From assembly GCF_007859075.1 (NCBI RefSeq), contig NZ_VOAK01000021.1, positions 186,001-250,000 on the forward strand: DNA of 64,000 nucleotides, read 5' to 3'. Source of the stretch: Gemmobacter aquaticus. Lineage in GTDB: Bacteria > Pseudomonadota > Alphaproteobacteria > Rhodobacterales > Rhodobacteraceae. The notes under the pieces were generated by a model. The model searched no databases and had not been told where the DNA came from. It saw nothing but the letters and a program-made list of their open reading frames with translations. Below are positions 39,391 through 57,507 of this stretch, one piece after another. The position numbers were made by a program, and so were the translations under genes. The stretch's first letter is position 1; every line of letters begins with the position of its first letter.

Positions 39391-40719
39391 TCAGAACCCG
39401 CCGGTGCGACCGGGGATCCAGTTGGTGCCCGCAAGGGGCACGCCCGCCATCGCGGCGGCCTCGATGGTCAAGGAACACAGGTCTTCAGGTTCCAGATTGT
39501 GCAGGTGGTTCTTGCCGCAGGCGCGCGCGATGGTCTGGGCCTCTAGAGTCATCACCTTGAGGTAGTTCTTCAGCCGCCGCCCGCCGAGCACGGGGTCAAA
39601 ACGGCTGGCGAGCTCCGGGTCCTGGGTGGTGATGCCGGCGGGATCGCGCCCCTCGTGCCAGTCGTCATAGGCGTCGGCGGTGGAACCAAGCGCCTGATAT
39701 TCGGCCTCCCATTTCGGATCGTTGTCGCCAAGCGCGATCAGGGCAGCCGTGCCGATGGCCACCGCATCCGCGCCAAGCGCCAGAGCCTTGGCCACATCGG
39801 CGCCCGTGCGGATCCCGCCCGAGACGATCAGCTGCACCTTGCGATGCATGCCCAGATCCTGCAGCGCCTTCACCGCCTGCGGAATGCAGGCAAGGATCGG
39901 CATGCCGACATGTTCAATGAACACGTCTTGCGTGGCCGCCGTCCCGCCCTGCATGCCGTCAACCACGACCACATCGGCCCCGGCCTTCACCGCAAGCGCG
40001 GTATCGTAATAGGGTCGCGCGCCACCGACCTTCACATAGATCGGCTTTTCCCAATTGGTGATCTCGCGCAGTTCAAGGATCTTGATCTCAAGGTCGTCAG
40101 GGCCGGTCCAGTCGGGGTGACGGCAGGCCGAGCGCTGATCGATGCCCTTGGGCAGGTTGCGCATCTGGGCCACGCGGTCGCTGATCTTCTGGCCAAGCAG
40201 CATGCCGCCACCGCCGGGTTTTGCCCCCTGCCCCACCACGATCTCGATGGCATCGGCGCGGCGCAGGTCATCGGGGTTCATGCCATAACGGCTGGGAAGA
40301 TACTGATAGACCAGCGTTTTGGAATGGCCGCGCTCTTCCTCGGTCATGCCTCCGTCGCCGGTGGTGGTCGAGGTTCCCGCCTCTGAAGCGCCACGCCCAA
40401 GCGCCTCTTTTGCGGGGCCGGACAATGCGCCGAACGACATGCCCGCGATCGTCACCGGGATGTCCAGATGGATCGGGTTCTTCGCAAAGCGCGTGCCCAG
40501 CCAGACATCGGTCGCGCATTTCTCGCGATACCCTTCCAGCGGATAGCGGCTGATCGAGGCGCCGAGGAACAGCAAGTCATCAAAGTGCGGCAGATGGCGT
40601 TTGGTGCCACCGCCACGAATGTCATAGATGCCCGAGGCGGCTGCGCGGCGGATCTCGGCATTGACCGCCGGGGTGAAGGTTGCCGAAAAGCGGGGCGGGG
40701 TGCGGGGAAAATCACTCAT
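39391..40719 (-). CDS. FMN-binding glutamate-synthase-family protein (MgsC/GlxD-like)
   Basis: Product of 442 aa corresponding to the FMN and Fe-S part of large-subunit glutamate synthase. The motifs are GQGAKPGGGGMLLG, YVKVGGARPYYD, VDGMQGGTAATQD and a C-terminal barrel end. In N-methylglutamate synthase, MgsC carries the synthase site that joins 2-oxoglutarate-derived glutamate carbon with methylamine; in GlxD the role is unsettled. A usual GltB would be near 1500 aa, so this is the split form with amidotransferase and GXGXG parts on separate genes upstream. Confidence 0.86.
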   Translation of the reverse strand: MSDFPRTPPRFSATFTPAVNAEIRRAAASGIYDIRGGGTKRHLPHFDDLLFLGASISRYPLEGYREKCATDVWLGTRFAKNPIHLDIPVTIAGMSFGALSGPAKEALGRGASEAGTSTTTGDGGMTEEERGHSKTLVYQYLPSRYGMNPDDLRRADAIEIVVGQGAKPGGGGMLLGQKISDRVAQMRNLPKGIDQRSACRHPDWTGPDDLEIKILELREITNWEKPIYVKVGGARPYYDTALAVKAGADVVVVDGMQGGTAATQDVFIEHVGMPILACIPQAVKALQDLGMHRKVQLIVSGGIRTGADVAKALALGADAVAIGTAALIALGDNDPKWEAEYQALGSTADAYDDWHEGRDPAGITTQDPELASRFDPVLGGRRLKNYLKVMTLEAQTIARACGKNHLHNLEPEDLCSLTIEAAAMAGVPLAGTNWIPGRTGGF

Positions 40720-40743: not shown

Positions 40744-41433
40744 TCAGTAGGACTGGGCATTGTCGATGTTGAAATTGTAGAGCTTGCGGGCCGAGCCATA
40801 GCGGCGGAACTCTTCGGGTCTGGCCTTCGCATCGGCCTCACCCCGCCGCAGCAGGTCTTCGACGATCAGGAAATGCTCGTCGCGCATTTCCTTCTCGATG
40901 CAGTCGGTGCCCAGCGACTTGACCTTGCCGCGCACGAAAAGGCGCGCCTCGTAAAGCGAGTCGCCAAGCGCCTCGCCTGCATCACCAAGCACCACCAGAT
41001 TGCCCGATTGCGCCATGAAGCAGGACATGTGGCCGATGTTGCCATGCACCACGATGTCGATGCCCTTCATCGAAATGCCGCAGCGACTGCTGGCATTGCC
41101 CTTGATCACAAGCAGCCCGCCACGCCCGGTTGCCCCGGCATACTGGCTGGCATCCCCGTCGATGATGACGGTGCCCGACATCATGTTCTCGGCCACGCCC
41201 GGCCCGGCGCTGCCCTTGATGCGAATGGTGGCAAGCTTGTTCATCCCCGCGCAGTAGTAGCCGGTCGAACCCCGGACGGTGATCTCGACCGGAGCATCGA
41301 CACCTGCGGCGATGGCATGGGCGCCCTTGGGATTGATCACCTCCCATGCCGTCATGTTGGTCTGCCCCTTCAGGGCATGTAGCGCGGAGTTCAGGGCGCG
41401 CAGCCCCTCGGCCTCCAGATCGAAGGTTTGCAT
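40744..41433 (-). CDS. GXGXG-domain glutamate-synthase-like subunit (MgsB/GlxC-like)
   Basis: Product of 229 aa with the right-handed beta-helix of the glutamate-synthase C-terminal domain, seen as repeats such as GSAGPGVAENM, GDASQYAGATGRGGLLVIKG and GNIGHMSCFM. It matches the length of MgsB. The start MQTFDLEAEG at 41433 follows the previous stop by 4 nt; a longer in-frame start would run into the amidotransferase gene. It should be the structural subunit that holds the split enzyme together. Confidence 0.85.
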   Translation of the reverse strand: MQTFDLEAEGLRALNSALHALKGQTNMTAWEVINPKGAHAIAAGVDAPVEITVRGSTGYYCAGMNKLATIRIKGSAGPGVAENMMSGTVIIDGDASQYAGATGRGGLLVIKGNASSRCGISMKGIDIVVHGNIGHMSCFMAQSGNLVVLGDAGEALGDSLYEARLFVRGKVKSLGTDCIEKEMRDEHFLIVEDLLRRGEADAKARPEEFRRYGSARKLYNFNIDNAQSY

Positions 41434-41437
41434 GGTC

Positions 41438-42334
41438 TCAGCGCTCCCAGAAATAGACGGTGGCGGGCTCGGGCTCCCAGACGCGGGCGGTCTCGATGCC
41501 CGGAAGGTTGACCAGCGCGCGGTATTCGCTGCCGAAGGCGACGTATTGATCGGTTTCGGCCATGACGGCGGGCTTGCAGGCGATCGGATCACGCACCACG
41601 CCAAAGCCGTTCTTTGTGCCGACCACAAAGGTGAAGAACCCGTCAAGGTCGGTCAGCGTGGCCTCCATCGCCTCGCCCAGTTTCTTGCCCTCTTGCAGCT
41701 TGTGGCTGATGAAGGCGGCGGCGACTTCGGTATCGTTTTCGGTCTCGAAGGTCATGCCCGCCTTCTTCAGCACGCGGCGCACGCCGTTATGGTTTGACAG
41801 CGATCCGTTGTGCACAAGGCACTGATCCGCCCCGGTCGAGAACGGATGCGCGCCCATCGTCGTGACGGCGGATTCGGTTGCCATGCGGGTATGGCCGATC
41901 CCGTGGGTGCCCGACATCTTCGCCACCTCGAACCGGGCGGCGACATCCTTGGGAAGCCCGACTTCCTTGAAGATCTCGATGCTTTCGCCCGCGCTCATCA
42001 CCTTGATCGCGGGACGATGCGACGCAAGCGCCTGACGGGCCGCATCAAGCTTGCCGGCGGGCAGGTCAACCACCGCATGGGTCGATTTGACCGCAACCGA
42101 TACGGGGGCACCGATGGCCTTGGCCAGAGCCACGTCGAGATCTGCGAAGTCCGTCTCGGGAGAGGCAGATTGCAGGGTGAGCTTGGCCTGCCCTTCTTCC
42201 GCACCTGAATAGATCGCGATGCCCGCTGAATCCGGGCCGCGGTCGGTCATGGTGACCAGCATATCGGTCAGAAGCTGACCAAGCCGGGGTTCAAGTTTTG
42301 GGTCCTTGAGAAACAACCCAACGATTCCGCACAT
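41438..42334 (-). CDS. Class II glutamine amidotransferase (MgsA/GlxB-like)
   Basis: Product of 298 aa that starts MCGIVGLF, so Cys2 becomes the N-terminal nucleophile after Met removal. It shows GHTRMATES and HNGSLSNH, both conserved in PurF/GltB-type Ntn amidotransferases. It should release ammonia from glutamine, or in N-methylglutamate synthase move the amine to the synthase site. It heads the four-gene set on the minus strand. Its promoter lies in the 308-bp AT-rich interval upstream. Confidence 0.88.
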   Translation of the reverse strand: MCGIVGLFLKDPKLEPRLGQLLTDMLVTMTDRGPDSAGIAIYSGAEEGQAKLTLQSASPETDFADLDVALAKAIGAPVSVAVKSTHAVVDLPAGKLDAARQALASHRPAIKVMSAGESIEIFKEVGLPKDVAARFEVAKMSGTHGIGHTRMATESAVTTMGAHPFSTGADQCLVHNGSLSNHNGVRRVLKKAGMTFETENDTEVAAAFISHKLQEGKKLGEAMEATLTDLDGFFTFVVGTKNGFGVVRDPIACKPAVMAETDQYVAFGSEYRALVNLPGIETARVWEPEPATVYFWER

Positions 42335-42642: not shown

Positions 42643-44082
42643 TCAGACCGAGAGACAGGCGTATTTCAGCTCCAGATAGTCCTCAATTCCGTGGCGCGAT
42701 CCTTCGCGCCCGATCCCGGATTGCTTTACCCCGCCGAACGGGGCGACCTCGGTGCTGATCAGGCCGGTGTTGATGCCCACCATGCCATATTCCAGCCCCT
42801 CCATCACGCGCCAGACCCGGCCCATATCGCGGGTGTAGACGTAGGAGGCGAGGCCGAATTCCGTGTCATTCGCGGCGTCAATCACCTCGGCTTCGGTCTG
42901 GAACCGAAACACGGGGGCGAGGGGGCCGAATGTTTCCTCGCGGGCAACCGTCATATCGGGTGTCATCCCGGCCAGCACCGTGGGGCGGAAGAAGGTGCCC
43001 TCGATGCGCGTGCCGCCGGTCATCAGCCGTGCCCCCTTGGCGCAGGCATCCGCAATATGCGCCTCGACCTTCGCCAGCGCGGCCGGGGTGATCAGCGGAC
43101 CGATCTCGGACCCGGCCTCGTCCCCCGGTCCAACGCGCAACGCGGCGACCGCCTCGGCCAGGCGGGCGATGAAGGCATCGTGGATACCCGATTGGGCATA
43201 GATGCGGTTGGTGCAGACGCAGGTCTGCCCGGCATTCCGAAACTTCGAGGCGATGCAGCCCTGAACCGCCGCCTCGAGATCGGCGTCGTCAAAGACGATG
43301 AACGGGGCGTTTCCACCAAGCTCAAGCGACAGTTTCTTGATCTGCGCGGCTCCCTGCCGCATCAGGATGCGGCCCACATTGGTCGATCCGGTGAAGCTGA
43401 TCTTTGCAACCTTCGGGTTCTCGCAGAACTCGATCCCCAGGCCTACTGCATCGGTCGAGGGCAGGATCGACAGCACCCCGGCGGGCAGGCCCGCACGCTC
43501 GGCCAGCACCGCAAGGGCAAGGGCCGAGAGCGGCGTTTCGGCCGCAGGCTTCGCCACAATCGCGCAACCTGCCGCAAGGGCCGGGGCCAGCTTGCGGGCG
43601 ATCATCGCATTGGGAAAGTTCCAGGGCGTGATCGCGGCCACCACACCCACCGGCTGCCGGATGACCAAGAGCCGCTTGTCGCGCTGGTGGCCGGGGATGG
43701 TCTCGCCATAGACGCGCTTTGCCTCTTCGGCGAACCATTCGATATAGCTTGCACCATAAAGAATCTCGCCCCGCGCCTCGGCCAGCGGCTTGCCCATTTC
43801 GGCGGTCAGGATCGCCGCAAGATCATCGGCATTCGCCACGACAAGATCGTGCCAGCGCCGCAGGATCGCGGCGCGCTCCTTGCCGGTCAGCGCCGCCCAC
43901 CCGGGCTGCGCCGCTTTCGCGGCGGCGATGGCGGTGGCGGCATCGGTACGGCTGCAATCGGCCACCTCGGCCAGCAGCGTGCCGCGCGCAGGGTCATGCA
44001 CCGTCAGGCGCGCGCTGGTCTGCACCCAGGCGCCAGCCAGATAAGCGCGGGTTTCCAGAAGGCCCGGATCATTCAGCCGCAT
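42643..44082 (-). CDS. NAD(P)-dependent succinate-semialdehyde-type dehydrogenase
   Basis: Product of 479 aa, aldehyde dehydrogenase superfamily, GabD class. The motifs are TPWNFPNAMIARKLAPALAAG, GSTNVGRILM, catalytic Glu in SLELGGNAP and catalytic Cys in NAGQTCVC. The close N-terminal pattern ETRAYLAGAWV and the SSADH-type segments make succinate semialdehyde the likely substrate, giving succinate. The start at 44082 has AAGG upstream and lies 4 nt past the ABC ATPase stop, so it is the last gene of the long operon. Glutarate semialdehyde is the main alternative. Confidence 0.87.
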   Translation of the reverse strand: MRLNDPGLLETRAYLAGAWVQTSARLTVHDPARGTLLAEVADCSRTDAATAIAAAKAAQPGWAALTGKERAAILRRWHDLVVANADDLAAILTAEMGKPLAEARGEILYGASYIEWFAEEAKRVYGETIPGHQRDKRLLVIRQPVGVVAAITPWNFPNAMIARKLAPALAAGCAIVAKPAAETPLSALALAVLAERAGLPAGVLSILPSTDAVGLGIEFCENPKVAKISFTGSTNVGRILMRQGAAQIKKLSLELGGNAPFIVFDDADLEAAVQGCIASKFRNAGQTCVCTNRIYAQSGIHDAFIARLAEAVAALRVGPGDEAGSEIGPLITPAALAKVEAHIADACAKGARLMTGGTRIEGTFFRPTVLAGMTPDMTVAREETFGPLAPVFRFQTEAEVIDAANDTEFGLASYVYTRDMGRVWRVMEGLEYGMVGINTGLISTEVAPFGGVKQSGIGREGSRHGIEDYLELKYACLSV

Positions 44083-44086
44083 CGCC

Positions 44087-45172
44087 TTAGCCCCTGACAA
44101 AGGCATGGGCCGCCTCAGGCGCCCAGCGGATATGCAACCGGTCGCCCCGCGCGATACGGGCTGACAGCGGATGGCCGAAGTTGAGCCGCACCGAAAGCGC
44201 GCCGCCCCATCCGGTACGGGCCGAAACGGTGGTGTTGTTGCCAAGGAATGTCAGGTCCTCCACCGTCACCGGCAGGCTTGCACCCTCGGGCCCTGGCTCG
44301 GGCGAAAGCTCGATCCGCTCGGGCCGCAGCATCAGCTCGGCCGCCTGCCCGGCAATGCCCCGCCCATGCAGCGGCACCGCCGCCACGGTAGAGCCATCGG
44401 CGAAGCGCAGGCCCGCGCGACCCTCGGCCACCCCGGCCAGCTCTCCTGCCAGAAAGGCGCTGTCGCCGATGAAATCAGCCACGAAATGGGTCGCGGGATT
44501 GGCGTAAAGCTCAGGCCCCGTGCCAACCTGTTCGATCTTTCCCTTGTTGAAGATCGCGATGCGGTCCGACAGGCGCAGGGCTTCTTCCTGATCGTGGGTG
44601 ACATAGAGGATGGTCACGCCGGTTTCCTGATGGATGCGGCGGATTTCGAACTGGATCTCTTCGCGCAGCTTCTTGTCCAGCGCCGAAAGCGGCTCATCCA
44701 TCAAAAGGACCGGCGGGTCATAGACCAGCGCACGGGCGAGGGCGACGCGCTGTTGCTGACCGCCCGACATCTTGGCGGGCATCCGGTCCTCGAACCCGTC
44801 GAGCCGCACCAGCGCCAGTGCGCGCTTCACCTTTTCGGCCACCTCGCTTTGCCCCATCCGCCGCACCCGCAGCGGGAAGGCCACGTTTTCACCCACGGTC
44901 AGATGGGGAAAGAGCGTATAGCGCTGAAACACCATACCGATGTTGCGCTTGTGCGAGGGCGTCTGAAGGATGGACTGGCCGCGCAGCTTGATGTCGCCCG
45001 ATGTGGGGTCCTGAAACCCCGCGAGGATGTAAAGCGTGGTCGACTTGCCCGACCCCGAGGGGCCGAGGAAGGTCATGAATTCGCCTTCCGCGATGGAAAG
45101 CTCCACATGGTCAGTGGCCACGACATCGCCATAGGTCTTGCGGATGCCGTTGATATGCAGGAACGGGGTCAT
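44087..45172 (-). CDS. ABC transporter ATPase, spermidine/putrescine (PotA) type
   Basis: Product of 361 aa. Walker A is GPSGSGKST at residues 37-45, the signature MSGGQQQRVALARAL, Walker B VLLMDEPLSALD, and the H-loop VTHDQEEA. A TOBE_2 domain fills the last 90 residues. This is the energising subunit of the PotABCD-like importer. The start overlaps the permease stop by 4 nt. Confidence 0.9.
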   Translation of the reverse strand: MTPFLHINGIRKTYGDVVATDHVELSIAEGEFMTFLGPSGSGKSTTLYILAGFQDPTSGDIKLRGQSILQTPSHKRNIGMVFQRYTLFPHLTVGENVAFPLRVRRMGQSEVAEKVKRALALVRLDGFEDRMPAKMSGGQQQRVALARALVYDPPVLLMDEPLSALDKKLREEIQFEIRRIHQETGVTILYVTHDQEEALRLSDRIAIFNKGKIEQVGTGPELYANPATHFVADFIGDSAFLAGELAGVAEGRAGLRFADGSTVAAVPLHGRGIAGQAAELMLRPERIELSPEPGPEGASLPVTVEDLTFLGNNTTVSARTGWGGALSVRLNFGHPLSARIARGDRLHIRWAPEAAHAFVRG

Positions 45173-45969
45173 TCGGATTTACCTTTGCGAAGAACGGCGG
45201 CGGCGATCATCAGAAGCACCGTCAGCGCGACAAGCAGGGTGGAGGCTGCAGCGATCACCGGGGTCAGGTCCTGCCGCAGTGTGGTCCAGACCTTGACCGG
45301 CAGGGTCTGGAGGGTCGGCGAGGCCATGAAAATCGCCAGCACCACCTCGTCCCATGAGATCAGAAAAGAGAAGATCGCAGCCGAAAACAGGCCGTGCCGG
45401 ATGCCCGGCAGGGTGACGCGCAATCGCGCCTCCCAGGGGGAGGCACCGCAGAGGATTGCGGCATCCTCGATCGCGGGATCAAAGGTTTCCAGCGCCCCGG
45501 TGATGGTGATGATTGCAAAGGGCAGCGCCACGATGACATGGGCGATGACAAAGCCCGGAAGCGTGCCGTTCAGTCCCAGCCTCAGGAAGGCTGCGTAAAG
45601 CGCCACCGCCACGATAACCACGGGAAGCACCATTGGCGTCAGGAAGAAGGCCCGCAGGACCGCCCGCCCACGGAATGTGCCGCGCACAAGTGCAAGCGAG
45701 GCAAGAAGCCCAAGGACCACCGAGATCACCATCACGATGACCCCGATTTTGGCCGAGGTGAGCGCTGCCCCGATCCAGCGTGGATCGGCGAAAAGCTCTT
45801 CATACCACTTCAGCGTCCAGCCCGGCGGCGGAAAGATCAGCCAGCGCGAATTGCCGAAAGACAGCGCGACGATGAACAGGATCGGCAGCAGCAGAAACAG
45901 GCTCATCACCGCGCAGATTGCCGTCAGAACCCAACGCCAGGCGCCCAGTTTGTGAAAATCCAGAAGCAT
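45169..45969 (-). CDS. ABC transporter permease, PotC type
   Basis: Product of 266 aa with six helices and the permease EAA loop (EDAAILCGASPWEARLRVTLP). It has the placement and length of PotC. It overlaps the ATPase gene by 4 nt and the other permease by 1 nt. It forms half of the membrane channel for uptake of a small amine or amine-like compound. Confidence 0.88.
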   Translation of the reverse strand: MLLDFHKLGAWRWVLTAICAVMSLFLLLPILFIVALSFGNSRWLIFPPPGWTLKWYEELFADPRWIGAALTSAKIGVIVMVISVVLGLLASLALVRGTFRGRAVLRAFFLTPMVLPVVIVAVALYAAFLRLGLNGTLPGFVIAHVIVALPFAIITITGALETFDPAIEDAAILCGASPWEARLRVTLPGIRHGLFSAAIFSFLISWDEVVLAIFMASPTLQTLPVKVWTTLRQDLTPVIAAASTLLVALTVLLMIAAAVLRKGKSE

Positions 45970-46802
45970 CAGCGCCCCTCCTTCGGTTCAAAGAAGCGCA
46001 GTTGCACGGCGTAAAGGCCCAGGGTGACGAGCAGCAGCAAAAAGGCCGCAGCGCCGCCCATGCCCCAGTTCACAAGGCTTTGCACCTGTTGCGCGATCAG
46101 CTCGGCCAGCATCATGTTGGCGGTGCCGCCCAGAAGCGAGGGCGTGACGTAGTAGCCAAGCGACATCACAAAGACCATCAGCGCGCCCGAGGCGATGCCG
46201 GGTGCCGCCAGCGGAACCAGAACGCGGGTCAGCGCTTGCCATTTCGTTGCCCCACAAAGTGCTGCGGCCTGCAGGATCGCCGGGTCGATCTTCTTGATGA
46301 CGCCCATCAGCGGGAGGATCATGAAGGGCAGCATGATATAGACCATGCCGATGGTCACACCGATCAGATTGTTGGTCAGCTGCAGGGGCTGGTCGATCAG
46401 ACCAATCGCCTTCAGCATCCGATTGATCAGCCCGGTCTGTTGCAGAAGCACCATCCAGGCGTAGGTCCGCGCCAGAAGGTTCGTCCACATCGATAGAAGG
46501 ATGATCGCAAAGACGACCGAGGCCCATCGACCTGGCATGATCGCCAGTGCCCATGCCACCGGAAAGGCGATCAGCACGGTCACCAGCGTCACGACACCGG
46601 CAACGAGGAACGTGTTGAAGAACACCTTCGCATAGGTCGTGCTGCCAACAAGTGCCGCATAGTTCTGCAGGCCCAGTTGCGGCTCTGTCACCGAGCGGGT
46701 GAGCAGGAACACGACAGGGATGACAAAGAAGGCAGCCAGCAACAGGATCGCAGACATGGCGAAGCCAAGCCCCGATCCGCGCCGGGTGGCGGCGGAAAAC
46801 AT
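45969..46802 (-). CDS. ABC transporter permease, PotB type
   Basis: Product of 277 aa with six helices and the EAA loop (LQAAALCGATKWQALTRVLVP). It is the PotB partner of the downstream permease. It follows the binding-protein gene by 59 nt across a perfect hairpin, so its expression may be lower than that of the binding protein. Confidence 0.88.
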   Translation of the reverse strand: MFSAATRRGSGLGFAMSAILLLAAFFVIPVVFLLTRSVTEPQLGLQNYAALVGSTTYAKVFFNTFLVAGVVTLVTVLIAFPVAWALAIMPGRWASVVFAIILLSMWTNLLARTYAWMVLLQQTGLINRMLKAIGLIDQPLQLTNNLIGVTIGMVYIMLPFMILPLMGVIKKIDPAILQAAALCGATKWQALTRVLVPLAAPGIASGALMVFVMSLGYYVTPSLLGGTANMMLAELIAQQVQSLVNWGMGGAAAFLLLLVTLGLYAVQLRFFEPKEGR

Positions 46803-46828
46803 GTCCGATCCTCCTCTAGACAGGACGC

Positions 46829-46853
46829 TCCCCGGGCCAAAGTGGCCCGGGGA
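46829..46853 (-). promoter_or_regulatory. Intercistronic hairpin between binding-protein and permease genes
   Basis: Perfect 11-bp stem TCCCCGGGCCA (46829-46839) and TGGCCCGGGGA (46843-46853) with a 3-nt loop and no U-run. Such hairpins after binding-protein genes usually protect the upstream mRNA from 3' decay and lower permease output. Confidence 0.65.
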
Positions 46854-46861
46854 CGATGCGG

Positions 46862-47869
46862 TTACTGTGCCTGCCAGGCGTACCAGCGGTTGCCGATCTC
46901 ATCGCGGTGCTCGGCCCAGTAGGCCATGTCGGCGTTCACCTGCACGGCAGTCTGCGCATCCGGCAGGGTCGCGCGGACGGCAGGATCCATCAGATCGGCC
47001 GATCCAAGATTGATCGGGGCATAGCCGGTCGCCGCGGCAAAGGCAGCCTGCCCTTCGGCGCTGGTGGCCTCGGCGATAAACTTCATCGCAGCATCCTTGT
47101 TTTTCGCGCCCTTGGGCACGACAAGCGCATCAGCCGCCGTGATGTTCTGGTCCCAGCTGACGCCGACCTCCATCCCGTCGGACTGCAGCGCAGAAATACG
47201 GCCATTCCAGAAGAAGCCGATCGGCGCCTCGCCCGAGGCGAGCAATTGCTGCGATTGCGCGCCGCCTTCCCACCAGATGATATCCGCCTTGATCGTGTCG
47301 AGCTTCTTGAACGCACGGTCGAGGTCGAGCGGATAGAGTGCATCGGGTGCCACGCCATCGGCCAGCAGCGCTGCCTCGATCACGCCCGGCGCCGACCATT
47401 TGTAGAAGGTCCGCTTGCCGGGAAATTTCGCCGTGTCGAACAGGTCCGCCAGGGTCGAAGGCTGCGCATCGGCAAAGTTCGCCGGGTTCCAGCCCAGCAC
47501 GAAGGAATAGTAGAACGACCCCACCGCGAAATCCGACACAAAGCGCGGATCAAGCTTGGACTTGTCGATCACTGCAAAGTCCAGCGGCTCCAGCAGACCG
47601 GCTTTGCCCGCCTGAAGCGCCCAGTCGTATTCAACGTCGACCACATCCCAGGTGACGGCGCCGGCCTCGACCATCGCTTTGATCTTGCCATAGTCGGTGG
47701 GGCCATCCTGTACCACGGCCGGGCCACCCTTTTCGGTGAAGGGCGCGGCCCAATGCGCGGCCTGCGCATCCTGGGTGGTGCCGCCCCATGAGGTGAACAC
47801 CATGTCCTGCGCCTGCGCAGCCGAGGTCAGGGCGCTGGCGAAGGCCAGCGCAATCAAGGTCTTTTTCAT
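46862..47869 (-). CDS. Periplasmic solute-binding protein, PotD type
   Basis: Product of 335 aa with a clean Sec signal peptide (MKKTLIALAFASALTSAAQAQ). The mature part has the SBP_bac_8/PotD pattern (MVFTSWGGTTQDAQ; DVVDVEYDWALQAGKAGLLEPLD is split around YDWA). Family members bind polyamines or other small cationic or polar nitrogen compounds. It lies just downstream of the aldehyde dehydrogenase and upstream of the permeases, so the imported compound is likely the substrate of the operon's enzymes. Confidence 0.88.
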   Translation of the reverse strand: MKKTLIALAFASALTSAAQAQDMVFTSWGGTTQDAQAAHWAAPFTEKGGPAVVQDGPTDYGKIKAMVEAGAVTWDVVDVEYDWALQAGKAGLLEPLDFAVIDKSKLDPRFVSDFAVGSFYYSFVLGWNPANFADAQPSTLADLFDTAKFPGKRTFYKWSAPGVIEAALLADGVAPDALYPLDLDRAFKKLDTIKADIIWWEGGAQSQQLLASGEAPIGFFWNGRISALQSDGMEVGVSWDQNITAADALVVPKGAKNKDAAMKFIAEATSAEGQAAFAAATGYAPINLGSADLMDPAVRATLPDAQTAVQVNADMAYWAEHRDEIGNRWYAWQAQ

Positions 47870-47893
47870 GTTCGTTTCCCTGTTGTCGCCTGT

Positions 47894-49357
47894 TCAACGC
47901 ATGACGAACGGGTCCGGGATCGGATCGTCCGAAGTGCGCAACCAGACAGTTTTCACGGTCGTGTAGTCCAGTGCCGCGGCAAGGCCCCCTTCCCTGCCAT
48001 GGCCAGAAAGCCCGTGCCCGCCAAAAGGCGCGATAGGGGATACGGCACGGTAAGTGTTCACCCACACGATGCCGGCGCGGATGCCCCGGATCATGCGATG
48101 GGCACGGGTCAGGCTGCGGGTGAAGACCCCCGACGCCAGTCCGTATTCGGTATCATTCGCCAGACGCAGCGCCTCTATCTCGGTGTCAAAGGTGACAACC
48201 GAGAGGACCGGACCGAAGAACTCCTCATTCAGGCAAGGCGCGGCCGGCGCATCGGAACAATCGAGGATCGTCGGCGGAAAGTAGAAGCCCGGCCCCTCTG
48301 GCACCCCACCGCCGGTGACAAGCCGCGCCCCGGCATCCAGCGACCGGGCGATCAGATCGGCGATCCGGTCGCGCTGGCGCAGGGTGCAAAGGGGTCCGAC
48401 TTCGGTCTCCATCTGATCCGGTGCGCCGATGGCCACCGCTTCGGCCTTGGCCTTGATCCGGGCGAGGAAGGCATCCTTCACCCCCCGCTGCACCAGCAGG
48501 CGCGAACCCGCCACGCAACTTTGCCCGGTCGCGGCAAAGATGCCCGAGACTTGCGCATTGGCCGCGCTGTCCAGATCCGCATCATCAAAGACGATGAAGG
48601 GCGACTTGCCGCCAAGTTCAAGCGAGGTTTTCGACAGGTTCTCGGCCGAGGCGCGCACGATATGGCGCGCAGTCTCGGGTCCACCGGTGAACGCGATATG
48701 GGCGATGTGTGGATGGCTGGTCAGTGCACGCCCTGCCTCGGGTCCGCCGGTCAGGATATTGACGACACCCGGCGGAAATCCCGCCGCATGAACCAGACGG
48801 GCGAACTCCAGCAACGGGGCGGGGCCATCCTCTGACGCCTTGACGACGAGTGTGCACCCCGCCGCAAGGGCCGGGCCGATCTTCACAGCCGACAGGAACA
48901 ACTGGCTGTTCCAGGGCACGATTGCCGCGACCACACCCACCGGCTCTCGGCGCAGCCAAACCTCCATATCCGGCTTGTCGATCGGCAGATGCGCGCCTTC
49001 GATCTTGTCGGCAAGGCCTGCGTAGTAGCGGTAGTATTCGGCGACATAGGCGATCTGGGCGCTGGTTTCGCGGATGATCTTGCCGGTATCGCGCGTCTCG
49101 AGTTGCGCCAGACGGGGTGCCGCTTCCTGCACCAGATCGGCAAGCCGCAGCAGAAGTTTGCCGCGCGCGGTGGCCGTCAGCCCTGCCCATTCGGGCGCAT
49201 GGAACGCCCGATGCGCCGCGCGGACGGCCCGATCGACATCAGCTGCATCCGCCGCAGGCATCAGGGCCCAGGCAGCGCCGGTTGCGGGATCGAGACTTTC
49301 GAAAGCCCCGGCCCCATCCTCGAAACGGCCATCGATATAGTGCTGGAAGCGGTCCAT
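47894..49357 (-). CDS. Aldehyde dehydrogenase (betaine/aminobutyraldehyde-like)
   Basis: Product of 487 aa. The motifs are VPWNSQLFLSAVKIGPALAAG, GGPETARHIV in the NAD-site area, catalytic Glu in LELGGKSP and catalytic Cys in GQSCVAGSRLL. It differs from the GabD-type enzyme at the operon end, so the operon has two aldehyde oxidation steps. The closest general class is the betaine-aldehyde or 4-aminobutyraldehyde group; the substrate is open. It lies 12 nt from the LLM gene. Confidence 0.87.
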   Translation of the reverse strand: MDRFQHYIDGRFEDGAGAFESLDPATGAAWALMPAADAADVDRAVRAAHRAFHAPEWAGLTATARGKLLLRLADLVQEAAPRLAQLETRDTGKIIRETSAQIAYVAEYYRYYAGLADKIEGAHLPIDKPDMEVWLRREPVGVVAAIVPWNSQLFLSAVKIGPALAAGCTLVVKASEDGPAPLLEFARLVHAAGFPPGVVNILTGGPEAGRALTSHPHIAHIAFTGGPETARHIVRASAENLSKTSLELGGKSPFIVFDDADLDSAANAQVSGIFAATGQSCVAGSRLLVQRGVKDAFLARIKAKAEAVAIGAPDQMETEVGPLCTLRQRDRIADLIARSLDAGARLVTGGGVPEGPGFYFPPTILDCSDAPAAPCLNEEFFGPVLSVVTFDTEIEALRLANDTEYGLASGVFTRSLTRAHRMIRGIRAGIVWVNTYRAVSPIAPFGGHGLSGHGREGGLAAALDYTTVKTVWLRTSDDPIPDPFVMR

Positions 49358-49368
49358 CTGTTCCCCTG

Positions 49369-50406
49369 TCAGGCGAAGGCGGGCATCACATCGCGGATGA
49401 GCCGCTCCAGCGACGCCTTCTTGCGCTCAAAGCTCATGCCCGTGTCGATCCAGAAGCTGAACTCGTCATACCCAAGCGCCTCATAGCCCTTGATGCGGGC
49501 GATCACCTCTGGCGCCTCGCCGATGATCTGGTTCTTGCGCATGCCCGCCGCAGTGTAGAACGGATGGGCGGCGATTTCTTCATCCGTCAGCTGCTGGATC
49601 AGGCCCTGGGTGATCGGACGCTCGTTCTTGAACCAGGCGCCGAAGTAGCAATAAAACCTGTTGATCTCTTCAGCTGCAAGCTGGGCGTCGGCCTCGCTGT
49701 CAGCGACATAGGCGTGGCGCAGCACCATGATCTTGGGACGCGGAACCTCGGGGTGGGCCGCGCAGGCAGCATTGAAGCGGTCCATCAGGCTGACCACCTC
49801 TTCATCGCCCAGATGCAACGGCGTCACCTGCACGTTGCAGCCATTGGCGACCGCGAAATCGTGGCTGTTTGGATCGCGGGCCGCCACCCAGATCGGGGGG
49901 CCGGGCTGCTGCACGGGTTTGGGCGAAGAGGTCGTCTTTGGGAACTGCCAGTACTCGCCGGCATGCTCATAGTCGCCTTCCCACAGCTTCCTGATGGCCG
50001 GCACCAGCTCTCGCATCCGCCCGCCCGCGCCCCAGGCATCCAAACCGGGCATCAGGCGTTCATATTCAAAGTTGTAGGCACCGCGGGCAATGCCCAGATC
50101 CAGCCGCCCATCCATGATGATATCGGCCATTGCGGCCTCACCTGCGAGGCGGATCGGGTGCCAGAATGGCGCGATCACCGTGCCTGTGCCAAGGCGGACG
50201 TTCTTCGTGCGGCGCGCCAGATCAACAAGGTTCAGCAGCGGGTTCGGCGCGATGGTGAAGTTCATTCCATGATGCTCGCCCGTCCAGATGGCATGCATCC
50301 CGCCTTCGTCCGCGATACGGCACAACTCGATCATTTCATCATAGAGCTGCTTCTGGTCGTCCTCGGCCGAGACGCGCTCCATATGGATGAAAAGTGAGAA
50401 TTTCAT
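49369..50406 (-). CDS. LLM-class flavin-dependent monooxygenase
   Basis: Product of 345 aa, a luciferase-like TIM barrel. It starts KFSLFIHMERVSAEDDQK and contains TGEHHGMNF, RLGTGTVIAPFWHPIRLAGE and DLGIARGAYNFEYERL, all common in two-component FMNH2 monooxygenases such as RutA and PyrA. It needs reduced flavin from a reductase, encoded by the next gene upstream with a 1-nt overlap. It is the probable entry enzyme that oxidises a C-N bond or a ring of the imported compound. Confidence 0.9.
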   Translation of the reverse strand: MKFSLFIHMERVSAEDDQKQLYDEMIELCRIADEGGMHAIWTGEHHGMNFTIAPNPLLNLVDLARRTKNVRLGTGTVIAPFWHPIRLAGEAAMADIIMDGRLDLGIARGAYNFEYERLMPGLDAWGAGGRMRELVPAIRKLWEGDYEHAGEYWQFPKTTSSPKPVQQPGPPIWVAARDPNSHDFAVANGCNVQVTPLHLGDEEVVSLMDRFNAACAAHPEVPRPKIMVLRHAYVADSEADAQLAAEEINRFYCYFGAWFKNERPITQGLIQQLTDEEIAAHPFYTAAGMRKNQIIGEAPEVIARIKGYEALGYDEFSFWIDTGMSFERKKASLERLIRDVMPAFA

Positions 50407-51359
50407 CAGTTCTGTCCTTCTGCGATACGTTGCACGCGTCCCTGTTCATGTGTGCCGAAATAGGTTCCATAGTTCCCCATGCGGGATTCCTCGGCCAGAC
50501 GCTGCAACATGCTGCGCAGGGCGGGATCGGTGACATCGGCCACCCCTTCCGGCGAAAGTTCGACAAAGGCGCCTTTTGCGCATTGGTTGTTTCGGGCGGG
50601 GCAGCGCAAAGCCAAATGCTGGGTTCCCAGCCGGGCATCCTCGTAAACCGCATAGACTGACCCGGCCTCGGCCTCGACCGACAAGGTTTCCAGAAGGGCG
50701 GACAGCGCGGCCTGAACGCCCTCGCGCCCCACCCGTGTCATCGGGACCGAGAGGCCACCGCGCCCGTCATCGACCAGAAGCACCTGACCAGCAGACTGGA
50801 TGATTGCCGAAAGCACCACATCAGGCCCGGCAGGCAGCTGCGCGGCCGTGGCGGCCGGGGTGACATAGGCCCCCCGATAGTAGCCAAGACCGGGATGGGC
50901 ATTGGCCTCGAACGCACCGATCCGGCCCAGCAGGATCGTGTGGTCCCCCGCCGGGATCACCTGTTCCATCGTACAGTCGAACCAGCCCGAGACCTCGGCA
51001 ATCAGGGGCGATCCGACCGGCCCATGGCGCCAGTAGACCGAGGCGAAACGATCCTCTGACGGCTTTGCAAAGGTGGCCGAGATGTCGCGCTGCCCCTCGG
51101 ACAGAATGTTCACCGCAAATCCCTTGGCGTTGCGGAACTGTTCAAGATTGGCCGACCGGTTTGCGATCGATACCAGCAGCAGCGGCGGGTCCAGCGAAAC
51201 CGACGAAAACGAGTTGGCGGTGAAGCCGAGCGGCTTGCCCTGATCATCGAGCGCGGTAACGACGGTAACGCCGGTCATGAAGCAGCCGAAGGCATCGCGC
51301 AAGGCGCGGGGATCAAGCACATTCGGGTCAGACAGACGAGGGTCAGGCGAGTTCGTCAT
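50406..51359 (-). CDS. Flavin reductase with extra C-terminal domain
   Basis: Product of 317 aa. Residues about 18-165 are the flavin-reductase-like (FMN-binding split barrel) domain with VTVVTALDDQGKPLGFTANS, SLDPPLLLVSI and the end GYYRGAY. Residues about 180-317 form a second domain that is not a reductase; its strand pattern (VVLSAIIQSAGQVLLVDDGR) is Nudix-like but it lacks a Nudix box. Reductases of RutF/HpaC type are about 165-185 aa, so this is a long variant. It supplies FMNH2 to the LLM enzyme. Confidence 0.85.
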   Translation of the reverse strand: MTNSPDPRLSDPNVLDPRALRDAFGCFMTGVTVVTALDDQGKPLGFTANSFSSVSLDPPLLLVSIANRSANLEQFRNAKGFAVNILSEGQRDISATFAKPSEDRFASVYWRHGPVGSPLIAEVSGWFDCTMEQVIPAGDHTILLGRIGAFEANAHPGLGYYRGAYVTPAATAAQLPAGPDVVLSAIIQSAGQVLLVDDGRGGLSVPMTRVGREGVQAALSALLETLSVEAEAGSVYAVYEDARLGTQHLALRCPARNNQCAKGAFVELSPEGVADVTDPALRSMLQRLAEESRMGNYGTYFGTHEQGRVQRIAEGQN

Positions 51360-52153
51360 TTCGGGACCTCCTCGGTCGCAAGCCAGCGCTTCATTTCTGC
51401 CGTGACCGCATCGGGTGCGGTCAGGTTGACCATGTGACGATGGCCCGCGATCACAACCGCGCGGCCCTGCGGTGCCATGGCTGCCATTGTCCTCGACATC
51501 GCCGGGGTCGAGTTTGCGTCGCCATCACCGGTCAGCACCAGCAACGGACAGCGCACCTGCCCCAAGCGGTCGGCATAAACCGTGTCCCCCTCGGCAAAGG
51601 CGCGATAGGCGGCGGCGTAGCCCCTGGGTGAGACGGCACGCAACCAGCCCGCGACCTGATCCCGGACGTCATCCTCATCTGTCCCGAACCAGCGGGAAAG
51701 CGGCGCCTCCACCGCGACCACGCCGGAGGCAAGTTCGTTCGCCCGGGCCATCACAGCGGCGCGGGCCGTGGCATCCCGACGGTGGACGCCATTGAGCAGC
51801 GCCGCGCGTGCAACCAGATCCGGCCGTTCAACCGCAAGCCCGCCTGCGATAAGCGACCCCATGGAGTGCCCCGCTACCGACACCGGGCCAAGGCCCAAAG
51901 CCTCGATCACGCGGGCCGCCCAGGCCACATAGTCTGGCAGTCGCGGATCACCGGGCAACGCGTCGCTTTCGCCGTGGCCTGGCATGTCCACCGCGATCAC
52001 GCGATGATCCGAGGCCAGCGCCACAATCTGCGGCCCCCAGGCCTCGGCCCGCATCCCGACCCCGTGGATAAGCAGGACCGGAGCCCCCGCCGATCCGGCC
52101 TCGATCACGCGGACCGCAGCGCCATCAGACAGCCGCAGGGTTCGCGACATCAT
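51356..52153 (-). CDS. Alpha/beta hydrolase (RutD-like position)
   Basis: Product of 265 aa. The motifs are LLIHGVGMRAEAWGPQI for the oxyanion site, nucleophile elbow GHSMGSL, acid in LTGDGDANS, and His in AGHRHMVN. It could hydrolyse an ester, enamine or amide intermediate, as RutD does for aminoacrylate. The start at 52153 keeps the usual N-terminal strand and overlaps the AA_synth gene by 29 nt; the long N-terminal extension in frame is rejected. It overlaps the reductase gene by 4 nt. Confidence 0.85.
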   Translation of the reverse strand: MMSRTLRLSDGAAVRVIEAGSAGAPVLLIHGVGMRAEAWGPQIVALASDHRVIAVDMPGHGESDALPGDPRLPDYVAWAARVIEALGLGPVSVAGHSMGSLIAGGLAVERPDLVARAALLNGVHRRDATARAAVMARANELASGVVAVEAPLSRWFGTDEDDVRDQVAGWLRAVSPRGYAAAYRAFAEGDTVYADRLGQVRCPLLVLTGDGDANSTPAMSRTMAAMAPQGRAVVIAGHRHMVNLTAPDAVTAEMKRWLATEEVPK

Positions 52154-52727
52154 GGCCCAGATCCTTGAGATCCTGATAGCGGTCGCCGATGCGGTGATGT
52201 GGCCGCCCGCCGGTTGAGGCGCCAAGAGCCACGACGATCTCGTCGGCCGCAGGCGCGTCGGGAATCGCGAAGTGGATGGTCTGATAGTGCGACCGGCGCC
52301 CCTCATCATGCTTGTCCATAAGGGGGATCATGACAGGGGTATTCGCAGGTCCGCGCACATTCGTGAATGCAAGGTAGGTTTTGGCTCCAACCGCCTGACG
52401 GTAGTGGTTGCCAAAGCGCAAGGTGTGGATCAGGGCGTTGGCGTGCTCCAGCTCTCCGTCCAGGCCCACCACGGCTGCTTTGCCATAGCCCTCGACGTTG
52501 TCAGCGCCACCCGCAGCCTCAAGGATCATTGCGGTCAACAGGGCACCGATTTCAGGTGCGATTGCGTGGATCTCGGGCTTCAGGTCCTCGACAAAGCCAC
52601 GACCAGCCCAAGGGTTCTTCAGAACGACAGCGGCCGAGATCAGCTTCAACGGCTTTGGCGCAGCGCGTCCGCCTTCGATCAGCGTTGTCTCGATATTGAG
52701 ATAGGTCTTGCGAATCTGTGCAGTCAC
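52125..52727 (-). CDS. Amino-acid-synthesis family protein (AA_synth, DUF1185)
   Basis: Product of 200 aa of the AA_synth family (Pfam PF06684), with IRKTYLNIETTLIEGG, LKNPWAGRGFVEDL, and GKAAVVGLDGELEHANAL as landmarks. The family's reaction is not known to me. The start is GTG at 52727 because GGAGG lies 5 nt upstream; the in-frame ATG at 52739 is itself part of that ribosome site. It is the first gene of the ten-gene operon, next to the operator. Confidence 0.83.
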   Translation of the reverse strand: MTAQIRKTYLNIETTLIEGGRAAPKPLKLISAAVVLKNPWAGRGFVEDLKPEIHAIAPEIGALLTAMILEAAGGADNVEGYGKAAVVGLDGELEHANALIHTLRFGNHYRQAVGAKTYLAFTNVRGPANTPVMIPLMDKHDEGRRSHYQTIHFAIPDAPAADEIVVALGASTGGRPHHRIGDRYQDLKDLGHDVANPAAV

Positions 52728-52748
52728 GAGCGCCTCCATTCCGGTTAT

Positions 52749-52774
52749 CCGTAAGATGGTATACCAACATACGG
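52749..52774. promoter_or_regulatory. GntR-type operator between the divergent GntR gene and the catabolic operon
   Basis: Perfect palindrome TGGTATACCA at 52757-52766, flanked symmetrically by CCGTA (52749-52753) and TACGG (52770-52774). The central GTATAC is typical of FCD-type GntR sites. For the minus-strand operon it lies between a TTGACA (52782-52777) and a weak CATCTT (52758-52753) 18 bp apart, so bound repressor would block RNA polymerase. Confidence 0.7.
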
Positions 52775-52789
52775 CATGTCAAGAACAAC

Positions 52790-52818
52790 TTGCATTAAAC
52801 CCCGTCCACCCCTATTCT
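52790..52818 (+). promoter_or_regulatory. Promoter of the GntR gene, leaderless
   Basis: TTGCAT (52790-52795), 17-bp spacer, TATTCT (52813-52818). The predicted start falls at or next to the ATG at 52825, and no ribosome site is seen upstream, so the message is probably leaderless. Confidence 0.5.
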
Positions 52819-52824
52819 GCTCAC

Positions 52825-53508
52825 ATGGATCAGACACATGACGCCGACCTGCGCATCGCGCATCCCCCCACCACACTGCGCGAGCTCGCGGTTGAACGGC
52901 TGCGACAGGCGATCATTTCCGGGCGGTTTCCGGGCGGGGTCCGGCTGGTCGAGCGCACGCTCTGCGACCAGTTGGGCGTGTCACGATCGGTCGTGCGCGA
53001 AGCGATCCGCTACCTCGAGGCCGAGGGTCTTGTCGAAACCCTTCCCCGTAGCGGGCCAGTGGTCGCAAAGCTCGACTGGGCCCGCGCGCAACAGATCTAT
53101 GATATCCGCCGCCTGCTGGAGTCCGATGCCGCCGCCGCCTGTGCACGGCTGGCCGACGATGCGGTCAAGGCGCGGCTGATCACGGCGCTTTCCCAGCTTG
53201 AGGCGGCCTTTACCGAAGCGACGCCCCCGCAGCTTTACGATGCAACGACGCGCTTCTACGAGGTCATCTTCAGCGCCGCCGGCCATGATATCGCCTGGGA
53301 GATCGTGCAGCGCCTGAACAGCCGCATCTCGCGGCTAAGGGCGCTGACGCTGGCCACGACCGATCGTCGAACCTCGGGCCCTGCCCACATGGCGCGGATC
53401 TGCGCCGCAATATGCGCAGGCGATCCCGACGCCGCTGCACAGGCCGTCCGCGAACACCTGACTGACGCCTCTGAGATCGCACGAACCCTGCTGGAGCGTG
53501 AGGGATGA
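52825..53508 (+). CDS. GntR-family regulator, FCD/FadR subfamily
   Basis: Product of 227 aa. The winged helix (residues about 15-75) reads LRELAVERLRQAIISGRF and LGVSRSVVREAIRYLEAEG. The FCD effector domain follows (about 85-220) with YDIRRLLESDAAA and later His positions for a metal. It should bind the TGGTATACCA site 51 nt upstream and release it when an intermediate of the operon's pathway accumulates. The start MDQTHDAD suits a leaderless message; longer frames overlap the operator. Overlaps the next gene by 4 nt. Confidence 0.9.
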   Translation: MDQTHDADLRIAHPPTTLRELAVERLRQAIISGRFPGGVRLVERTLCDQLGVSRSVVREAIRYLEAEGLVETLPRSGPVVAKLDWARAQQIYDIRRLLESDAAAACARLADDAVKARLITALSQLEAAFTEATPPQLYDATTRFYEVIFSAAGHDIAWEIVQRLNSRISRLRALTLATTDRRTSGPAHMARICAAICAGDPDAAAQAVREHLTDASEIARTLLEREG

Positions 53509-53801
53509 CCGCCTACTGGATCGCCCATGTCACTGTCACCGACCCCGAGGCATATGCCGGGTATCAGGCTCTGGCCCCGGCAGCCTTTGCGGCCCATGGC
53601 GCACGGTTTCTGGCGCGCGGCGGCACTTCCGAGGTTCTGGAAGGACCAGAGCTTTCCCGCCATGTGGTGATCGAGTTCCCATCGCTCGAGGCCGCGCGGG
53701 CCTGCTATGCCTCCGACGCCTATCAGGCCGCCAAACGCCGCCGCGACGCCGCAGCCATCGCCCATGTCGTCATCGTCGAGGGGTTGTCTAAGCCGGCTTA
53801 G
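53505..53801 (+). CDS. DUF1330-family protein
   Basis: Product of 98 aa of the DUF1330 family, a ferredoxin-like dimeric alpha/beta-barrel fold. It starts MTAYWIAHVTVTDPEAYAGYQ and keeps EFPSLEAARACYASDAYQ. Such small proteins often accompany monooxygenases but their role is not established. The start overlaps the gntR stop by 4 nt, so it is under the same promoter. Confidence 0.86.
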   Translation: MTAYWIAHVTVTDPEAYAGYQALAPAAFAAHGARFLARGGTSEVLEGPELSRHVVIEFPSLEAARACYASDAYQAAKRRRDAAAIAHVVIVEGLSKPA

Positions 53802-55824: not shown

Positions 55825-55965
55825 TGCGGTGATCCCTGAAAAGCACCCCGAACACCTATCAGCGATGACCGATACAGACAAGAATATGTCCGTATGGATC
55901 AAACCGCTTCCGACAGGGCGCGCTAGGCAGGAAGGAACGACGGGTCCACACAAGGATGATCGGAA

Positions 55966-57216
55966 ATGCGCTATTCGGCGTTCCGGGTTCTGAAAGAGGC
56001 ATTGACCGGCCATAAGGGCTGGCAACCGCTGTGGCGCAACCCCGATCCCAAACCGGCCTATGACTATGTCATCGTGGGCGGCGGCGGCCACGGGCTTGCC
56101 ACCGCCTATTATCTGGCTCGGACCTTTCGCAAAGCCCGGATCGCGGTGCTGGAGAAATCCTGGCTCGGGTCCGGCAACATCGGGCGGAACACCACGATCA
56201 TCCGATCAAACTATCTGCTGCCGGGGAACGAGCCGTTCTACGAATTCTCGATGAAGCTGTGGGAGAACCTGGAGCAGGAGTTCAATTTCAACGCGATGGT
56301 CAGCCAGCGCGGCATCCTGAACCTGATCCACACCGATGGTCAGCGCGATGCCTATCGTCGGCGCGGCAACGCGATGCTGCTGGCGGGCGCCGATGCCGAG
56401 CTGCTGGATCAGGCGCAGGTCCGCGATATGGCGCCCTTCCTGAACTTTGACAATGCGCGCTTCCCGATCAAGGGCGGGCTCTTGCAGCGGCGCGCGGGCA
56501 CGGCGCGGCATGACGGCGTGGCCTGGGGTTACGCACGGGGGGCCGATCTGGCCGGGGTCGACCTGATCCAGAATTGCGAAGTGACAGGCTTTCGCATCGC
56601 GGGTGGCCGGGTGCAGGGCGTCGAAACCTCGCGCGGCTACATAGGGGCGGGCAAGGTTGGCGTAGCGGTCGCGGGATCGACAAGCCGGGTCATGGCACAG
56701 GCCGGCATGCGCCTGCCAATCGAAAGCCATGTCCTGCAGGCCTTCGTCTCTGAGGGGTTGAAGCCCACCATCCCCGGCGTGATCACCTTTGGCGCAGGTC
56801 ACTTCTATGTCAGCCAGTCTGACAAGGGCGGCCTCGTCTTTGGCGGTGACATCGACGGCTACAACTCGTACGCACAGCGCGGAAACATGCCCGTGATCGA
56901 GGACGTGGCCGAGGGTGGCATGGCGTTGATGCCGATGATCGGCCGGGCGCGCCTGCTGCGCATCTGGGGCGGCATCATGGACATGTCGATGGACGGCTCG
57001 CCCATCATCGACCGGACGCCGGTCGAAGGGCTCTATCTGAATGCAGGCTGGTGCTACGGCGGGTTCAAGGCAACCCCGGCCTCGGGCTACGCCTTCGCGC
57101 ATCTGCTGGCGACCGACACGCCACATGATACCGCCCGCGCCTATCGGCTCGACCGGTTCAACCGTGGCTATGTGATCGACGAAAAGGGCATGGGCGCCCA
57201 ACCGAACCTGCATTGA
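55966..57216 (+). CDS. soxB: Sarcosine oxidase / N-methylglutamate dehydrogenase beta-type subunit
   Basis: Product of 416 aa, FAD-dependent DAO fold. The FAD site is VIVGGGGHGLATAYYLA; NIGRNTTIIRSNYLLPGN follows. ARHDGVAWGYARGAD with H182 matches the region that binds FMN covalently in SoxB. GWCYGGFKATPASG closes the substrate area. The N-terminus (MRYSAFRVLKEALTGHKGWQ) differs from the canonical SoxB start and fits an alphaproteobacterial subclass that may be MgdA. The subunit oxidises an N-methyl group to formaldehyde or methylene-THF. It starts the four-gene operon. Confidence 0.88.
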   Translation: MRYSAFRVLKEALTGHKGWQPLWRNPDPKPAYDYVIVGGGGHGLATAYYLARTFRKARIAVLEKSWLGSGNIGRNTTIIRSNYLLPGNEPFYEFSMKLWENLEQEFNFNAMVSQRGILNLIHTDGQRDAYRRRGNAMLLAGADAELLDQAQVRDMAPFLNFDNARFPIKGGLLQRRAGTARHDGVAWGYARGADLAGVDLIQNCEVTGFRIAGGRVQGVETSRGYIGAGKVGVAVAGSTSRVMAQAGMRLPIESHVLQAFVSEGLKPTIPGVITFGAGHFYVSQSDKGGLVFGGDIDGYNSYAQRGNMPVIEDVAEGGMALMPMIGRARLLRIWGGIMDMSMDGSPIIDRTPVEGLYLNAGWCYGGFKATPASGYAFAHLLATDTPHDTARAYRLDRFNRGYVIDEKGMGAQPNLH

Positions 57217-57225
57217 GGTGATGCG

Positions 57226-57507
57226 ATGCTGATCCCCCACCCGCTTCTGGGCCTGCGCGACGCACAGGAGTTCACATATCTGGGCGATGCGGCCTTGCTG
57301 AACCGCCCGGATGGCCTGACCGCTCCCGAAGCCTTCAACGACTATGTTTACCTGCGCGACAATCCGGCGGGTGTGCATCGTGAACTATGGTTCCACGAAC
57401 AGGGTGATCGCAGCTGGCTGATCGTGACCCGCAACACCCTGACCCATGACATTCTGGGCGTAGAGCTTGCCCGCGATGTGGCGCTTGGCGCAAAAGGTGC
57501 GAAATGA
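57226..57507 (+). CDS. soxD: Sarcosine-oxidase delta-type subunit lacking zinc cysteines
   Basis: Product of 93 aa that follows soxB by 9 nt and overlaps soxA by 4 nt, the position of SoxD. Landmarks RDAQEFTYLGDA, YVYLRDNPAG, RELWFHEQGDRSW and TRNTLTHDI match the family. Canonical SoxD holds Zn with CPxCG near the start and a His and Cys later. Here the first pair reads HPLLG, the later Cys is Asp, and the protein has no Cys at all; only the His remains. So the zinc site is lost, a trait I recall in the mgd-like subclass. Confidence 0.82.
   Translation: MLIPHPLLGLRDAQEFTYLGDAALLNRPDGLTAPEAFNDYVYLRDNPAGVHRELWFHEQGDRSWLIVTRNTLTHDILGVELARDVALGAKGAK

Follow-up and report, generated by a model that had tools for sequence, protein, structure and literature searches.

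In a 64,000-nucleotide (nt) stretch of the Gemmobacter aquaticus genome (contig NZ_VOAK01000021.1, positions 186,001 to 250,000; hereafter the window), a ten-gene cluster on the minus strand, facing a gntR-DUF1330 pair, is very probably a tgn operon for the catabolism of trigonelline (N-methylnicotinate). Sequence similarity, gene order, the tree position of its luciferase-like monooxygenase (LLM) and a conserved promoter palindrome led us to this reading. An earlier note on the same DNA had proposed an undescribed pathway for a nitrogen compound. Most likely, the operon is a member of the trigonelline pathway that has already been described: the gene set, AA_synth, GntR and DUF1330 included, is arranged as in the tgn cluster of Acinetobacter sp. 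PK01 and A. baylyi. No new pathway is needed, and a false lead is removed. Trigonelline is the likely substrate; pyridine, pyrrolidinone, uracil and polyamines are less likely. This substrate, each reaction in the strain, the roles of the AA_synth and DUF1330 proteins, the binding of GntR and the link to methylamine are inferred or taken from background knowledge, and are worded conditionally.

When plasmid records were searched with the LLM protein, a gene of Acinetobacter sp. PK01 came up that is 77% identical and annotated as tgnB, the oxygenase component of trigonelline monooxygenase. On that plasmid, divergent DUF1330 and GntR genes are followed by AA_synth, alpha/beta hydrolase, tgnA (reductase), tgnB (LLM), tgnC (aldehyde dehydrogenase), a cytosine permease, a hypothetical protein and a succinate-semialdehyde dehydrogenase (SSADH), and the three tgn genes are annotated as trigonelline genes. 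The type strain of A. baylyi (L040) carries the same locus. Counting the ten operon genes and the facing pair, eight of the 12 were found there at 46-76% identity (single values in Table 1); the other four are the importer genes. The LLM enzyme matches TgnB over its full length (76-77%) and shares a 121-row clade with the A. baylyi enzyme. The adjacent flavin reductase (46-47%) and aldehyde dehydrogenase (69-70%) hold the positions of TgnA and TgnC, and the cluster also contains the hydrolase (52% to A. baylyi) and the SSADH (55%; TIGR01780 above its cut-off).

The ring-opening step is assigned from similarity and from the literature: the consulted part of PMC8269262 states that TgnA/TgnB opens the trigonelline ring (citing Perchat et al., 2018), and TgnB is listed among LLM enzymes in the consulted part of PMC11354265. 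In the window, N-methylnicotinate would be brought in by the ATP-binding cassette (ABC) importer, TgnA would supply reduced flavin to TgnB, and TgnB would open the pyridinium ring. The later steps fit the genes: in the tgn pathway that Perchat et al. published in 2018, reportedly with A. baylyi as the species studied, TgnC is said to yield an acid, whose hydrolysis gives methylamine, formate, CO2 and succinate semialdehyde, which SSADH turns into succinate. By analogy, TgnC would oxidize the ring-opened product to the acid, the alpha/beta hydrolase (presumably TgnD) would split it into those four products, and the operon SSADH would form succinate. The SSADH step is also said to have been helped there by a conserved hypothetical protein. 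This helper might be the AA_synth protein, whose solved-structure relatives, PDB 3byq and 2qtp, are both uncharacterized. The chemistry proposed in the earlier note, catabolism of a nitrogen compound with two-component LLM ring opening, an aldehyde dehydrogenase and an SSADH end at succinate, is largely borne out.

The ten genes and the facing pair are present in the list of open reading frames (ORFs) of the window, and their grouping as an operon was made from sequence. Pfam assigned AA_synth, Abhydrolase_1, Flavin_Reduct, Bac_luciferase, Aldedh (twice), SBP_bac_8, BPD_transp_1 (twice) and ABC_tran to the ten proteins, GntR and FCD to the regulator, and DUF1330 to its partner. Spacing was derived from the ORFs with start codons that we chose. 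AA_synth and hydrolase overlap by 29 or 26 nt (hydrolase start at 52153 or 52150), hydrolase and reductase by 4 nt, and reductase and LLM by 1 nt; gaps of 11, 24 and 59 nt follow (LLM/aldehyde dehydrogenase, aldehyde dehydrogenase/binding protein, binding protein/permease); the permeases overlap by 1 nt and the second overlaps the ATPase by 4 nt; ATPase and SSADH are 4 nt apart (SSADH start 44082) or overlap by 20 nt (start 44106). The arrangement, families and tight spacing described earlier were confirmed.

The search for the same neighbourhood in other genomes, suggested in the earlier note, covered the best 80 of at least 559 relatives, ranked by similarity to the Acinetobacter protein, with flanks of up to 10 kb. 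AA_synth, hydrolase, reductase, LLM and aldehyde dehydrogenase were consecutive and co-directional in 73 of the 80 genome-contig loci, so the arrangement is not due to chance. The seven loci without the full order are five from Caballeronia, one from Burkholderia (L076) and one that begins near a contig end (L107). A GntR protein of more than 40% identity was found in 72/80 loci, DUF1330 in 60/80, and at least three importer genes of more than 50% identity in 32/80. Within the family, 65 of 394 genomes had the LLM gene at E <=1e-100. At the phylum level, matches at E <=1e-20 occurred in 41 of 398 genomes, the weaker ones being other LLM enzymes. The closest named relative among the matches listed was that of Gemmobacter fulvus (91%). 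Four Caballeronia loci (L070, L071, L074 and L075) have a second set in the same five-gene order, with an LLM 62-63% identical to that of the window; it adjoins, back to back, a tgn-like set for which the analysis found no reductase. Three records listed as Acinetobacter baumannii plasmids (NZ_CP104448.1, NZ_CP077849.1 and NZ_CP064203.1) are 3.7-4.1 Mb long, chromosome-like in size.

The phylogeny of the LLM enzyme, proposed earlier against RutA and PyrA, was run against tgn loci. In the 140-row tree, the window, A. baylyi and S. meliloti enzymes fell in the common 121-row clade (Shimodaira-Hasegawa-like approximate likelihood ratio test, SH-aLRT, 99). Inside it, the window enzyme, Acinetobacter and Burkholderia form a 68-row group (support 88), and the S. 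meliloti enzyme lies in a separate group (support 89), their branching order not being settled by the tree. An uncharacterised group of 9 rows lies in this clade as well and bears on a rival explanation, in which the ring is opened in the same way but the compound is a relative of trigonelline, another N-methylpyridinium such as homarine (N-methylpicolinate). The flanking N-methylglutamate dehydrogenase, assigned from context, would serve homarine too if that compound, as is reported, yields N-methylglutamate. Nevertheless, we consider homarine improbable, as the operon SSADH fits the nicotinate skeleton, the locus is closely similar to those of A. baylyi and S. meliloti, and the consulted part of PMC8269262 argues that homarine is, on steric grounds, an unlikely substrate of TgnA/TgnB. 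The same part reports that growth of Ruegeria pomeroyi on homarine was less effective than on trigonelline. No described homarine gene set turned up in the literature searched for that compound.

Eight stretches of this group (L148-L155) were covered, with LLM proteins 62-67% identical to the window enzyme. AA_synth and hydrolase stand beside the LLM in 8/8 and the full five-gene order is present in 5/8; no gntR above 40%, DUF1330 or SSADH above 50% was found in any of the eight. Among ten ORFs around locus L153 are its own AA_synth and aldehyde dehydrogenase, other families without an evident pathway link, including an amidohydrolase, and two ORFs without a family match, one directly upstream of AA_synth.

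Two other kinds of LLM system were weighed. The earlier note had suggested a pyridine-type or Rut-type route, and a PyrA-like or Rut-like pathway for pyridine or pyrimidine has the same general enzyme logic of LLM, flavin reductase, hydrolase and dehydrogenases. We regard it as very improbable, and trigonelline as the likelier substrate: RutF scored 79.2 bits (cut-off 254.75) and RutD 63.9 bits (cut-off 238.5), the LLM is 77% identical to annotated TgnB, and candidate methylamine genes flank the operon, and pyridine has no methyl group. Membership in the Rut pathway was rejected, both models being below cut-off. A sulfur-source system for desulfonation or dimethylsulfone, which the earlier note had named as the result that would count against it, is suggested by the LLM family alone and is hardly credible: SsuD reached 23.9 bits (cut-off 518.2) and SfnG 42.9 bits (cut-off 382.95), and Pfam found no sulfur family among the ten operon proteins. 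An alkanesulfonate or dimethylsulfone monooxygenase was rejected on these two models. The best solved-structure relative of the LLM enzyme was 7bip (104.4 bits).

Between gntR and AA_synth lie 85 nt, which hold the sequence TGGTATACCA within a longer palindrome. We compared 59 promoters including that of the window, taken from loci whose divergent gntR exceeds 40% identity and lies within 500 nt; 57 were distinct, and as many of them are closely related they are not independent. The exact core was found in 52/57 (shuffle mean 0.0/57) and the looser form TNGTNNACNA in 57/57 (shuffle mean 2.2/57). A. baylyi is among the five promoters without the exact core and reads TGGTATACAA. The pSymA locus was left out because its gntR is not divergent. 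This conserved palindrome is a probable GntR operator, and the divergent regulator would probably act at this single site between the two transcripts. With up to one mismatch allowed, the core occurs at a single site in the window, and an exact search of the genome gave one site, so the flanking operons do not have it in exact form. Control of the flanking methylamine genes from the same site therefore found no support. The candidate operator could help to find tgn clusters in other genomes.

On the pSymA replicon of Sinorhizobium meliloti we found the five-gene core, four importer genes (57-75% identity), an SSADH (64%) and a GntR gene (44%), and records of strains 1021 and 2011 that have the size of pSymA also gave LLM matches. 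According to the consulted part of PMC4207669, wild-type S. meliloti grows on trigonelline and a pSymA-deleted strain does not; the part of PMC12489286 consulted refers to Goldmann 1991 for the presence of trigonelline genes on pSym. The importer belongs to a spermidine/putrescine-like family and is loosely PotABCD-like. The four importer proteins, however, stay below the cut-offs of all NCBIfam models shown for them, and the binding protein matched PotD weakly (41.7 bits, cut-off 582), so the "amine-type" label of the earlier note tells little about what is imported.

Several points weigh against trigonelline as the substrate. An SSADH above 50% identity was found in only 41/80 loci within the flanks covered, importer genes like those of the window were not found in the Acinetobacter loci compared, and the reductase (46%) and hydrolase (52%) identities to A. 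baylyi are modest. The PK01 gene names look like automatic annotation. The tree was made by a quick search and has 49 open forks, support for the narrower group that joins the window with Acinetobacter is 88, and, as the clade includes the uncharacterised 9-row group, clade membership alone leaves the substrate unfixed. Finally, the pSymA deletion removes the entire replicon, so the growth loss, as given in the part of the source consulted, does not single out the tgn-like locus. Even so, we hold the tgn assignment to be very probable.

Genes of methylamine type lie on both sides of the tgn operon (Table 1). A synthetase-like gene and three glutamate-synthase-like subunits of the N-methylglutamate set are present at family level; on the other side, sarcosine-oxidase family models match three subunits, though these models do not separate N-methylglutamate dehydrogenase from sarcosine oxidase. 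For the large (alpha-like) subunit the genome encodes a single further full-length relative (46%), which could be either enzyme, and the next best relative of the synthetase-like protein is 38% identical. These genes likely form the N-methylglutamate route for methylamine, the expected by-product of trigonelline. The released methylamine would probably pass through N-methylglutamate to glutamate and a folate-bound one-carbon unit. The prediction is that trigonelline can serve the strain as a source of both carbon and nitrogen, the methylamine being re-used in this way.

The pairing of tgn and methylamine genes recurs and is not general. Methylamine-type genes above 30% identity were found in the flanks of 6/80 loci, four from Acinetobacter (L038-L041, 32-42% matches) and two from Rhizobiales (L100 and L110, 70-87%); PK01 has such genes too. 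Among ten stretches of the family, close matches (90-92%) occur in L160, and in L165 the synthetase has a 30% match. Against a general link, they were not found in the Gemmobacter fulvus or the pSymA stretch. A regulator at 54137-54784, XRE-cupin-like by eye, is matched at 68-69% next to the methylamine-type genes in L100 and L110 and may thus belong with these and not with tgn; a GlxA/AraC-like gene (by eye) comes next at 54862-56091. As a tentative extension, 38054-61993 might form a 24-kb island for complete trigonelline use, with ring and N-methyl group handled side by side, and the 9-row LLM group might open a different N-methylpyridinium; we put this forward as a doubtful possibility.

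Table 1. Features of the tgn region in the window (percentages are protein identities).
Feature	Coordinates	Strand	Basis
Type III glutamate-ammonia ligase-like, probable gamma-glutamylmethylamide synthetase	38054..39361	-	TIGR03105 659.3 bits (cut-off 469.6); methylamine role from context
Probable N-methylglutamate synthase, Glu_synthase subunit	39391..40719	-	PF01645; role from context
Probable N-methylglutamate synthase, GXGXG subunit	40744..41433	-	PF01493; role from context
Probable N-methylglutamate synthase, amidotransferase subunit	41438..42334	-	PF13522; role from context
SSADH	42643..44082	-	TIGR01780 680.5 bits (cut-off 646.35); 55% A. baylyi, 64% pSymA; start chosen by us
ABC importer ATPase, PotA-like	44087..45172	-	Family models, Pfam; 67% pSymA
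ABC importer permease, PotC-like	45169..45969	-	Family models, Pfam; 57% pSymA
ABC importer permease, PotB-like	45969..46802	-	Family models, Pfam; 74% pSymA
ABC importer substrate-binding protein	46862..47869	-	Pfam; 75% S. meliloti pSymA gene in same place
Aldehyde dehydrogenase, predicted TgnC	47894..49357	-	69% A. baylyi, 70% PK01 gene annotated tgnC
LLM monooxygenase, predicted TgnB, oxygenase component	49369..50406	-	Full-length 76% A. baylyi locus, 77% PK01 tgnB; tree
Flavin reductase, predicted TgnA, trigonelline monooxygenase reductase component	50406..51359	-	Same position as PK01 tgnA; 46% A. baylyi, 47% PK01
Alpha/beta hydrolase, probable hydrolase of ring-opened acid	51356..52153	-	Pfam; 52% A. 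baylyi; role by position and background
AA_synth/DUF1185 protein, operon gene 1	52125..52739	-	Pfam; 68% A. baylyi locus
Probable GntR operator, longer palindrome	52751..52772	.	Core TGGTATACCA at 52757-52766
GntR/FCD regulator, divergent	52825..53508	+	Pfam; 53% A. baylyi
DUF1330 protein	53505..53801	+	Pfam; 53% A. baylyi
Sarcosine-oxidase-beta-like, probable N-methylglutamate dehydrogenase	55966..57216	+	TIGR01373 681.1 bits (cut-off 529.45); substrate from context only
SoxD-like subunit, same enzyme	57226..57507	+	PF04267 above cut-off; TIGR01374 80.2 bits, below cut-off 116.5
Sarcosine-oxidase-alpha-like subunit, same enzyme	57504..60431	+	TIGR01372 1325.9 bits (cut-off 1164)
Probable fourth dehydrogenase subunit	60424..60996	+	Position only; no family-model match at E-value limits used
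PurU, formyltetrahydrofolate deformylase	61109..61993	+	TIGR00655 328.3 bits (cut-off 285.95)

Among known systems, the Rut pathway and the pyridine pathway of Arthrobacter would share with the window a two-component LLM ring opening; the Rut models, however, stay far below cut-off on the window proteins. The flanks resemble the N-methylglutamate pathway in their synthetase-like gene, three glutamate-synthase-like subunits and sarcosine-oxidase-like subunits, but the genes are split here on either side of the tgn operon. The pSymA region has the enzymes in the same order, a four-gene ABC importer and the SSADH downstream; unlike the window, its gntR is co-oriented with the operon, it has an inserted NIPSNAP gene, and no DUF1330 or N-methylglutamate genes were found in the 25 kb read. 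The Acinetobacter tgn cluster is without similar importer genes, PK01 having a cytosine permease in that place, and the A. baylyi promoter differs by one change in the palindrome core. However, it has the divergent DUF1330-gntR pair, keeps the order of AA_synth, hydrolase, reductase, LLM and aldehyde dehydrogenase, and carries the SSADH downstream, as the window does.

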